NCBI RefSeq assembly: GCF_900095225.1
Contig: NZ_LT607419.1
Coordinates: 270,348 to 334,347 of the forward strand
Direction: 5' to 3'
Length of the DNA stretch: 64,000 nucleotides
From: Pseudomonas sp. UMAB-08
GTDB lineage: Bacteria; Pseudomonadota; Gammaproteobacteria; Pseudomonadales; Pseudomonadaceae
The first letter of the stretch is position 1. Each line of letters begins with the position of its first letter. The translations under genes were made by a program, and so were the position numbers. This document shows, piece by piece, positions 9,729-13,277 of the stretch. The notes below the pieces were generated by a model that saw only the letters and a program-made list of their open reading frames with translations, did no database searches and was not told the DNA's origin.

Positions 9729-10163
9729 GTGGAACTCTCGCTCTTAGTTTGGTTGTTGCCGACGCTTGCCCTGGTTGTCGGCGTCGTCGTTGGTTTCCTG
9801 GTCGCACGTCTGCTACCCGGCGCCGCCCCTAACAGCACGCAGCGTCAGCTGGATGATGTTCAGGAGCGCTTCAACAGTTATCAGAACGAGGTGGTTACCC
9901 ACTTCAACAGCACGGCAACCCTGGTGAACAAGCTTTCGCAGAATTTCCAGGAAGTACAGGACCATCTCTCCGATGGTGCCAACCGCCTGGCGCTGGATGA
10001 AGTGACACGTCAACGTTTGCTGGCCAGCCTGCACGCCGATGCAGCACAAGCGCCTCGCGACCGCCTGACCCCACCCCGCACCACAGAAGCGCCGAAGGAT
10101 TACGCGCCCAAAACACCGAATGCCCCCGGCATGCTCGATGAGCATTACGGTTTGAAAAAATAA
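9729..10163 (+). CDS. zapG: ZapG / YhcB, DUF1043 inner-membrane protein
   Basis: Small inner-membrane protein of 144 residues. It has one N-terminal transmembrane helix (about residues 5-28, ending GFLVARLLPG), then a cytoplasmic coiled-coil (about 36-95) and a disordered Pro/Thr-rich tail. YhcB (ZapG) in E. coli links envelope growth with cell division. The GTG start follows AGGAAGGA, and there is no better start downstream because the membrane helix begins at once. A strong terminator follows the stop. Confidence 0.88.
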   Translation: MELSLLVWLLPTLALVVGVVVGFLVARLLPGAAPNSTQRQLDDVQERFNSYQNEVVTHFNSTATLVNKLSQNFQEVQDHLSDGANRLALDEVTRQRLLASLHADAAQAPRDRLTPPRTTEAPKDYAPKTPNAPGMLDEHYGLKK

Positions 10164-10325: not shown

Positions 10326-10390
10326 ATCAGATCGCGCCGCGGCTGCGTAGCAGTTCCAGGACTTGCTTGACGCTGTCGTCGAGTGACAGC
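10326..10390. repeat. Left copy of a 65-bp direct repeat (duplicate of the cysNC 3' end)
   Basis: These 65 bases are identical to 11367-11431, which encode the last 20 codons and stop of cysNC. The offset is 1041 bp and the first mismatch is at 10391 against 11432. The copy is not joined to the rest of cysNC and marks the left border of the lectin islet. Confidence 0.95.
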
Positions 10391-10466
10391 AATTCGATAT
10401 AGATTTTTCCTACATCACTTTCGGACTGCGGAGTCTATATAACATCTCGACCTGAAATTATGCTCT

Positions 10467-10481
10467 TCCGAAATTCGGAGG
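10467..10481 (+). promoter_or_regulatory. Inverted repeat overlapping a strong ribosome-binding site
   Basis: TCCGAA (10467-10472) and TTCGGA (10474-10479) form a perfect inverted repeat with a one-base centre. Its right arm overlaps GGAGG (10477-10481), the Shine-Dalgarno of the small lipoprotein gene at 10486. It may be a protein-binding site; with so short a loop, a stable RNA hairpin would need to open the central pairs. Confidence 0.4.
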
Positions 10482-10485
10482 ACAT

Positions 10486-10707
10486 ATGAAAACAATCGTA
10501 ACGATCGTCACCTGCATACTAGTTTCAGGCTGCATATCGGAAGACTGCTATCGCCGCTGCTTCCCCGATCTCAATTTCAAATGCGACATGAACCCTGATT
10601 TACCTGAGTGTGCCGCACGCCGAGAACGCCTGACAGTGGCGTCTAGTATCATGCCCTTGAAAAATCACCAGATATCAAACTTCCAGATGGGTCGCTCATC
10701 TGACTGA
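10486..10707 (+). CDS. Small Cys-rich putative lipoprotein, unknown function
   Basis: A 73-residue protein that I do not recognise. Residues 1-15 form a short signal peptide ending in the lipobox LVSG-C with C16 as lipidation site. The mature part has Cys at 21, 25, 33 and 42, which could form disulfides in the periplasm. The start follows GGAGG at ideal spacing. Its last 43 bp overlap the 3' end of the convergent lectin gene. Inside a lectin islet it is a candidate companion or immunity factor, but no homology supports that. The C-terminal 15-20 residues may simply be read through the overlap. Confidence 0.6.
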   Translation: MKTIVTIVTCILVSGCISEDCYRRCFPDLNFKCDMNPDLPECAARRERLTVASSIMPLKNHQISNFQMGRSSD

Positions 10708-11168
10708 AACAAGACTTTATACATTTTTGGCCATGGGAGGCGGCCGGGTACAAACCCAAAGCGAGCCCAGCATAAGGCCCCTGTTCGGTTGTCGTAGATG
10801 ACCATATTCCCGTCATCCTGCAAGGCCAAATAGCTGTTATACCAGACTGACTTGTCACGCGCATGGCTGCTCTCGGCAATCCAGGTGCGGCTCCGGAGGC
10901 TGTCATACAAGAAGCCACTGTTGCTCACAACAAAGCGCGGAGCCCCAACCATTTTCTTTCGAGAGGACAGAGTCTTGCTATAAGGCTGGCTAGTGTCGGC
11001 AACCCAGGCAACCACGCCGTGATCCTTGATCACCAAATTTCCATCGCCTTGCAACTCCAATCGGAAGCGCCCATTCGGAGATACAAGAAATTGCCCTGGT
11101 GACATAACCTGATTGGGTGGTAATACCGAGAAACCACTCCCCTGAAACGGAACATACTGAATACTCAT
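10665..11168 (-). CDS. Single-domain monocot-type (B-lectin/MMBL) lectin, possible LlpB-like bacteriocin
   Basis: A 167-residue protein with one bulb-type mannose-binding lectin domain (about residues 5-135). Sugar-site motifs of the QxDxNxVxY type are seen: Q117-Y125 is intact, and Q40-K48 has Lys for the final Tyr. A third, degenerate repeat lies near residues 82-89. There is no signal peptide and one Cys (C133). The C-terminal 30 residues are aromatic-rich and end in Trp. Lectin-like bacteriocins LlpA and pyocin L have two such domains; a single-domain class (LlpB) is also known in Pseudomonas. The start at 11168 follows AGAGG. The islet is AT-richer than its neighbours, which suggests transfer. 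Killing activity is inference. Confidence 0.85.
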   Translation of the reverse strand: MSIQYVPFQGSGFSVLPPNQVMSPGQFLVSPNGRFRLELQGDGNLVIKDHGVVAWVADTSQPYSKTLSSRKKMVGAPRFVVSNSGFLYDSLRSRTWIAESSHARDKSVWYNSYLALQDDGNMVIYDNRTGALCWARFGFVPGRLPWPKMYKVLFQSDERPIWKFDIW

Positions 11169-11312
11169 ACTTGCCTCTACAAACAATAATTGAGTACCCA
11201 CTCGATCAGATTAATACCTCGCTCACGCCATACGTATATATAGACAACCCAGACTATTATTTTGCGCTCCGACACACACAAAACATCATCTAACGTACAA
11301 CTTACACGCAAT

Positions 11313-11350
11313 AAAAAACCCTGCGAAGAATCACTCCTTCGCAGGGTCTT
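11313..11350 (-). terminator. Intrinsic terminator after cysNC
   Basis: A 10-bp perfect stem (11319-11328 with 11337-11346) is followed on the minus strand by GGGTTTTTTAT. A TCTTTT run on the plus side could also stop transcripts coming the other way. Confidence 0.88.
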
Positions 11351-11366
11351 TTGTCAGCGAACAGCG

Positions 11367-11431
11367 ATCAGATCGCGCCGCGGCTGCGTAGCAGTTCCAG
11401 GACTTGCTTGACGCTGTCGTCGAGTGACAGC
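11367..11431. repeat. Right copy of the 65-bp direct repeat (native cysNC 3' end)
   Basis: Identical to 10326-10390. This copy contains the functional stop and last 20 codons of cysNC, so the gene stays intact despite the inserted islet. Confidence 0.95.
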
Positions 11432-13263
11432 GATTGAGTGTCGATCACCAGATCGGCATTCAACGGCACGTCATACGCGAAGGATTCACCCGGAATGTTG
11501 TCGCCATTGGCGGCATACAGACCCTGCGGATCACGCTCGCGGCAGACCGCTGGCGAAGCCTGGACGTAAACGGTGATCAGACGATCATCGCCAATCAGCG
11601 ATTTAGCCTGTTCGCGACCTTCGGCGTCCGGCGCAACGAATGCCGCCAGTGTCAGCAGGCCCGCTTCGTTGAACTGACGCGCCACGTGCGCGGCACGTCG
11701 CCAGTTTTCGGTACGCCCGGCACGGTCCTGCGGTAGACCCTTGTTCAGGTCATGGCGCAGGTTCTGGCCGTCAAGCACGTAGACCGCACGGCCCATGTCG
11801 AACAGTTTGCGTTCAACGGCATAGGCCAGGGTGCTTTTGCCAGCGCCGGACAAGCCGCTGAACAATACCGTGGCAGGCTGCTGACCGAAACGCCGCGCAC
11901 GTTCTTCAGTGGCAACGTGAGCCTTGTGGTCGTGGTGGCTACCACCGACAACGACTGGGCGGGCGATGATCATGCCCGCGGCAACGGTGCCGTTGGTCAA
12001 CCGATCGATGACGATGAAAGAACCCGTGGTGCGGTTGCTGTCATAACCATCCAGCGCAATCGCGCTGTCGAGGCTGATCTTGACCCGACCGATTTCGTTC
12101 AGCTGCAATGCGCTGGCCGGGCCTTCGGCCAACGTGTTGACGTCGACCCTGTAGGCGATGCTGGCAACAGAGCCCTGCACGTAGCTGGTGGCGCGCTTGA
12201 TGTCGTACTTCTTGCCCGGCAGCATCGGCTCTTCAGCCATCCACACCATCATCGCATCGAAGGTGTCAGTGATCTGCGGAATGCTGTCGGCATGCACCAG
12301 CAAGTCGCCACGGGAGATGTCGACTTCGTCTTCCATGGTCAGGGTCACTGCCTGGCCTGGACCGGCGTGTTCCAGCTCGCCATCAAAGGTGACGATGGAT
12401 TTGACCCGGCTGGTCTTGCCGGACGGCAACACGATGATTTCATCGCCTTTGTGCACGATGCCGCTGGCCAGGGTACCGGCGAAACCACGGAAGTTCAGGT
12501 TTGGACGGTTAACGTACTGCACCGGGAAACGCAGGTCGGTGAAGTTGCGATCAGCCGCAAACTCTACGGTCTCGAGAATCTCCATCAACGTCTGGCCGGT
12601 GTACCACGGCGAACGCTCGCTGTGATTGACCACGTTGTCGCCCTTCAGCGCGGACATCGGGACGAAATGCATGGTGGTCGGCTTGAGCGCGATGCCATCG
12701 GCAAACTTCAGGTAATCGGCCTTGATCGACTCGAAAACACCTTCATCGAAGTTCTTCAGGTCCATCTTGTTGATGGCGACGACGATGTGTTTGATGCCCA
12801 ACAGCGAAGCGATGAAGCTGTGGCGGCGGGTCTGGGTCTGCACGCCGTAACGGGCGTCCACCAGAATGATCGCCAGGTCACAGGTCGACGCACCGGTGGC
12901 CATGTTGCGGGTGTACTGCTCATGGCCCGGGGTATCGGCAATGATGAATTTGCGTTTGGCGGTGGAGAAATAGCGATACGCGACATCGATGGTGATGCCC
13001 TGCTCACGCTCGGCCTGCAGGCCGTCTACCAGCAACGCCAGGTCGATATCGTCGCCGGTGGTGCCGACTTTTTTCGAGTCGCGGGTAATGGCTTCCAGGT
13101 GATCTTCGTAGATCATCTTGGAGTCATGCAGCAGGCGGCCGATCAGCGTGCTTTTGCCGTCGTCGACGTTACCGCAGGTGAGAAAGCGCAGCAGTTCTTT
13201 ACGTTCGTGCTGGCCCAGATAGGCGAGGATGTCCTCGCTGATCAATTCTGATTGATGCGACAT
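11368..13263 (-). CDS. cysNC: Sulfate adenylyltransferase subunit 1 / adenylylsulfate kinase fusion
   Basis: Bifunctional sulfate-activation enzyme of 631 residues. The CysN part is a GTPase that drives ATP sulfurylase with CysD; the CysC part phosphorylates APS to PAPS. GTPase motifs are GNVDDGKST (31-39), DTPGHEQY (110-117) and NKMD (165-168). The kinase P-loop is GLSGAGKS at 470-477. The start at 13263 ([11 protein letters not shown]) has AGGGTG six bases upstream and matches the P. aeruginosa protein; a GTG at 13272 is poorly placed. It lies directly downstream of cysD. Its last 20 codons are duplicated 1041 bp away. Confidence 0.97.
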
Positions 13264-13277
13264 GTGAGACACCCTGT

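Follow-up and report, generated by a model that had tools for sequence, protein, structure and literature searches.

Does the small MMBL lectin encoded at the end of cysNC in Pseudomonas sp. UMAB-08 belong to the LlpB bacteriocins, and does its gene travel with one that might protect the producer? Published accounts state that lectin-like bacteriocins have no immunity gene or factor (PMC6240691, PMC6465234). We analysed a stretch of 64,000 nucleotides around the gene, here called the window. On its sequence the lectin itself is a further member of an already known subclass, LlpB. The newer part of the locus is not the lectin but a lipoprotein partner adjoining llpB. The first-pass annotation, made from the letters alone, read the lectin correctly and missed both this convergent partner and the direct repeat that flanks the pair. 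The features are collected in Table 1.

Table 1. Features of the llpB locus, in positions of the window.
Feature	Position	Strand	Basis or remark
zapG/yhcB-like gene, bordering the site on the other side	9729..10163	+	Pfam
Direct repeat of 69 bp, outer copy (duplicate of the last 20 cysNC codons and stop)	10326..10394	-	68/69 identical to 11367-11435
Inserted cassette, llpB and lipoprotein gene (putative)	10395..11366		GC 48% against 59% for the window; empty-site comparison
Small lipoprotein gene, 73 aa; candidate immunity lipoprotein	10486..10707	+	Profile match, 52 bits; GGAGG ribosome site; comparison with the G299 copy
llpB, 167-aa one-domain MMBL lectin-like bacteriocin (predicted), large LlpB clade	10665..11168	-	Profile, PDB match, AF2 model, tree
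C-terminal basic/aromatic extension of LlpB (31 aa and stop)	10665..10760	-	Composition, alignment, low-confidence stretch of AF2 model
Terminator-like hairpin between llpB and cysNC	11318..11347		Consensus scan only
Inner repeat copy, true 3' end of cysNC	11367..11435	-	Repeat comparison
cysNC (sulphate adenylyltransferase / APS kinase), gene that hosts the insertion site	11368..13272	-	Pfam

The llpB frame predicts a protein of 19.06 kDa with a pI of 9.6. Its start is likely the ATG at 11168, which has a GAGG ribosome site upstream and a position shared by the aligned homologues, rather than the earlier GTG at 11201 of the mechanical ORF call. Inspection of the 167 residues revealed a single B-lectin domain and no visible signal peptide, as had been described, and the motifs noted at first pass were found again: an intact QxDxNxVxY site at residues 117-125 (QDDGNMVIY), a first motif with lysine in place of tyrosine at 40-48 (QGDGNLVIK) and a decayed middle repeat at 81-89 (VSNSGFLYD). 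The pattern QxDxNxVx[YK] arose in only 3 of 20,000 shuffled versions of the protein, so its presence is far beyond chance. The last 31 residues, FGFVPGRLPWPKMYKVLFQSDERPIWKFDIW, do form an aromatic tail, with five lysines or arginines, eight aromatic residues and a terminal tryptophan. The suggestion that this tail is unusual, and that the lectin may be a new variant, found no support in the alignment: lysine (or threonine or glutamate) for tyrosine in motif 1 and a basic/aromatic W-x-F tail are both the norm across the LlpB family.

Ghequire and De Mot defined LlpB in 2019 by one lectin domain, an extension of about 32 residues and a gene at cysN or flavin monoamine oxidase sites, and demonstrated killing by two LlpBs (PMC6465234). 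The LlpB proteins of Pseudomonas sp. UW4 and P. fluorescens A506 described there resemble the window lectin, by published description rather than by sequence, in their single B-lectin domain, their basic/aromatic extension of about 32 residues, a size of about 19-20 kDa, the absence of a signal peptide, the cysN site and a GC content below the genome average. Here too llpB lies downstream of cysNC, its relatives also occurring at an amine oxidase gene, and its GC content is 51% against 59%. The source genome holds only one lectin match, and thus no llpA. No relative was found on plasmids, and the search of phages gave just one 31% match. The lipoprotein partner and flanking repeats seen at the window locus go unmentioned in the account of the UW4 and A506 genes (PMC6465234).

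Comparison with the characterised lectin-like bacteriocins supports the class suggested at first pass. The best PDB match was putidacin L1/LlpA (E 1.2e-37; 45-46% identity), and an AlphaFold model (pLDDT 74) built on 33 sequences of the window and the loci was closest to the LlpA N-domain 4gc1, with an rmsd of 1.8 A and a TM score of 0.69; the tail was poorly modelled, with low confidence at residues 145-158. The N-terminal MMBL fold is thus predicted to be that of LlpA/putidacin L1 (3m7h, 4gc1) and pyocin L1, but the second, D-rhamnose-binding domain of LlpA is missing. Profile searches gave the same picture. Residues 8-127 matched the N-terminal half of the LLB_putidacin model NF033557 (142.5 bits, E 1.6e-41; best stretch profile positions 1-120 of 274), well under the 275-bit cut-off of this two-domain model, which fits a protein without a second MMBL domain. 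Against the Pfam B_lectin profile LlpB reached a sub-threshold 24.2 bits, and because it scores under the Pfam cut-off a PF01453 search of the source genome returned no match. In an IQ-TREE analysis of 63 lectin domains, including 25 LlpB rows, the window lectin grouped with 24 other LlpBs (support 92/89), nested in the LlpA N-domains, while the LlpA C-domains formed a separate group (100/100).

A lectin that merely binds carbohydrate, or a degenerate piece of an LlpA, neither of them a toxin, might also match no more than the N-terminal half of the LlpA model and score below its cut-off. We regard such an identity as very improbable, given that the window lectin aligns at full length with the LlpB family, including the conserved WAR.GF.PGR tail, that its clade is distinct from typical LlpA N-domains, and that two LlpBs kill (PMC6465234). 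Every published LlpB feature that can be examined in silico was found, which supports counting the window lectin as an unexceptional LlpB of the large clade.

A gene converging on llpB, whose 3' end it overlaps by 43 nt, encodes a small lipoprotein with the lipobox VSGC followed by FKC..NP....EC. At most of the other llpB loci inspected a small lipoprotein stood in the same position, and a profile search extended this to all. We define the family by a lipobox ending in Gly-Cys, a KC-x8-C core and a position on the opposite strand adjoining llpB. Its consensus, of about 52 residues, is M-K...LSGC...ELA.KC.IDPY..DC, and M1, C16, C34, P38 and C43 are invariant in 42 sequences. The window copy belongs to it by profile score and convergent orientation, with an aberrant C-terminus. 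Compared with the copy in the sister genome G299 it has a small internal deletion of a few residues, and with the stop codon lost its frame extends by about 26 residues and reaches into llpB. This copy may be impaired; G299 is the mirror case, with an intact lipoprotein gene and a broken llpB. Used as a lone query the window protein found only 5 genomes, and the profile was needed for wider recovery.

The gene is truly coding, since dN/dS is about 0.29 in comparisons between paired copies and about 0.29 between orphan copies, indicating purifying selection, and ribosome sites recur ahead of it. The residue after the lipidated cysteine is mostly Val, Ala, Ser or Thr and in no sequence Asp, which fits sorting to the outer membrane. 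Neither Pfam nor NCBIfam has a family containing this lipoprotein. PHROG searches matched Cor superinfection-exclusion proteins and spanins only weakly (E 0.001 or worse), over the signal peptide where the alignment was shown, and an AlphaFold model had low confidence (pLDDT 65) and was uninformative.

Among 399 Pseudomonas genomes the opposite-strand lipoprotein accompanied all 42 LlpB-clade genes, intact and broken llpB together. It lies just beyond the llpB 3' end in 37 of these, with 3'-end gaps from -42 to about +305 nt, and on the 5' side in 5. Typical LlpA loci differ: none of 20 had this lipoprotein, nor another small lipoprotein near the llpA 3' end, and a search of 145 further genomes of the order, almost none of them Pseudomonas, did not find it. 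A single two-domain lectin has the lipoprotein (locus L118, genome G336); its N-domain is sister to the LlpB clade (99/96). The sole one-domain lectin outside that clade (L108) lacks it, so the partnership tracks the LlpB branch and not the fold. Fisher tests of the association were extreme, but ignore shared descent. The L118 arrangement (L118:2126-3184), with its small convergent lipoprotein, could represent an intermediate between LlpA and LlpB.

The lipoprotein also occurs without the toxin. In 25 further genomes it was found without llpB, about 24 copies being intact and one (L116) frameshifted; a few of the 25 are distant and low-scoring (26-32 bits). Twenty lie at the two sites used by llpB, 13 at the FAD-amine-oxidase gene and 7 at cysNC. 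Two lipoproteins adjoin a C-terminal remnant of llpB (L112 in G026 and L111 in G125). Nine of the 42 paired loci have a broken llpB beside an open lipoprotein gene, and one (L008) has an intact llpB beside a frameshifted lipoprotein gene. In the broken pairs alone this 9:1 asymmetry is weak (P 0.27 given the gene sizes). With the orphans, llpB is broken or gone and the lipoprotein kept in about 33 genomes (33-34:1), with P about 0.001 given the gene lengths and ignoring phylogeny. By analogy, such retention of the lipoprotein after loss of the toxin is what would be expected of an immunity gene outlasting its toxin. At three loci (L014:2013-2359, L106:3940-4256, L111:1956-2302) two lipoprotein subtypes stand in tandem by one broken llpB, like immunity gene arrays, and in L110 the order is lipoprotein, frameshifted llpB, lipoprotein.

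Two other roles for the lipoprotein have to be weighed. It may be passive cargo of the cassette, or serve the envelope in a way unrelated to LlpB, with producers protected by their type of BamA. LlpA producers are reported to be self-protected in this way, through the BamA loop 6 type (PMC6240691), so that self-protection does not demand an immunity gene; the orphans indicate a function without llpB, and L008, with its toxin intact and no intact lipoprotein, is evidence against an immunity role. However, cargo would not readily be linked to llpB in 42 of 42 cases, spread across two main sites and a number of lineages, while missing from the 20 LlpA loci and the other genomes of the order, nor would most orphans be expected at llpB sites, and we think this account unlikely, although it is the stronger of the two. 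Alternatively the lipoprotein could be a release factor which, like the colicin lysis lipoproteins, perturbs the producer's envelope so that LlpB, which has no export signal, can leave the cell. The small size of the lipoprotein allows this, and the literature describes no settled route by which lectin-like bacteriocins leave the cell. Unlike a colicin lysis gene, however, the lipoprotein gene runs opposite to llpB and shares no operon with it. It also stays under purifying selection after llpB is lost, and colicin lysis proteins are not known to have the KC-x8-C core. A release factor thus seems improbable to us.

We therefore favour, as the probable reading, an acquired two-gene bacteriocin cassette in which the lipoprotein would be the cognate immunity lipoprotein of LlpB. 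Immunity genes of pore-forming colicins are likewise on the opposite strand to the toxin gene and have their own ribosome site, an arrangement that the LlpB lipoprotein gene resembles. Colicin immunity proteins, though, span the inner membrane several times, whereas the LlpB partner is a lipoprotein of about 52 residues. A precedent for the mode of action is Llp of phage T5, a small periplasmic outer-membrane lipoprotein that turns the external loops of FhuA inwards, which prevents binding from outside (PMC9586334). Like T5 Llp and phage Cor, the LlpB lipoprotein is very small and would act on a receptor from the outer membrane, as shown for T5 Llp and proposed here. It has no clear sequence homology to them beyond the signal peptide, and it is tied to a bacteriocin rather than a phage.

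The target is suggested by earlier work on both classes. Resistance to LlpB maps to LPS-modifying genes (PMC6465234), and the N-domain of LlpA, to which LlpB is homologous, selects BamA loop 6 (PMC6240691). LlpB, released without a signal peptide, would bind lipopolysaccharide and an outer-membrane target on related Pseudomonas, by this homology probably a surface loop of BamA, and kill from outside. The lipoprotein made from the opposite strand would receive its lipid anchor and probably be sorted to the outer membrane, where it would shield or reshape the target of LlpB as T5 Llp does with FhuA. We infer both BamA as the target and the location and function of the lipoprotein. We found no structure of pyocin L1 with BamA in the open-access literature; PDB entries 9pxi and 9pxj hold pyocin L1/L2 as chain F. 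Whether LlpB bacteriocins form a true toxin-immunity system, with outer-membrane lipoproteins of about 52 residues, which also serve as orphan resistance genes, protecting cells against a surface-acting lectin, probably through an action from within on BamA or another outer-membrane target, we judge an even question.

The cassette looks inserted at the 3' end of cysNC, as it is flanked by the 69-bp direct repeat. In the window 1211 bp separate cysNC from zapG (yhcB); in four relatives whose site is empty, the distance is 95-249 bp. The cassette contains no integrase, and the promoter scan found no sigma-70-like site. A control scan of the rest of the window found no other flanking repeats of at least 60 bp, so that the llpB cassette stands alone in this. 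The repeats resemble an att-like site, and one of the same kind occurs in G299. As a general feature of llpB the repeat was weakened, such repeats being present at only 6 of 49 llpB loci; they were found at 7 of 20 llpA loci.

Repeats also border other genes of this kind. In G203 an orphan lipoprotein gene inserted at the 3' end of mscS is bracketed by direct repeats of 168 bp (95%) that comprise the end of mscS and its terminator (L036:1300-1467, 1882-2048), and the single-domain lectin without lipoprotein in L108 (14062-15492) lies within a 258-bp direct repeat (85%). In L122 (1913-2071, 2919-3078, 4155-4309), L126 and L135, llpA sits between direct repeats of about 155-177 bp that copy the 3' terminus of a small zinc-finger gene, which by eye resembles a Mu-type Com gene. 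The llpA repeats hint at a common route by which lectin bacteriocin genes enter genomes.

The LlpB paper does not contain the word lipoprotein (PMC6465234), the review uses it for BAM subunits and colicin lysis proteins only and names no LlpB partner (PMC6240691), and the later open-access papers found report no lipoprotein partner of LlpB. If the proposal is true, the conserved partner and its orphans would overturn the view that there is no immunity gene, for the LlpB subclass. The lipoprotein would then be a direct genetic handle on killing by LlpB and on its outer-membrane target, and would aid the prediction of strains resistant to LlpB-based biocontrol. Research on BAM inhibitors would also gain from knowing an outer-membrane lipoprotein that blocks an attack on BamA.
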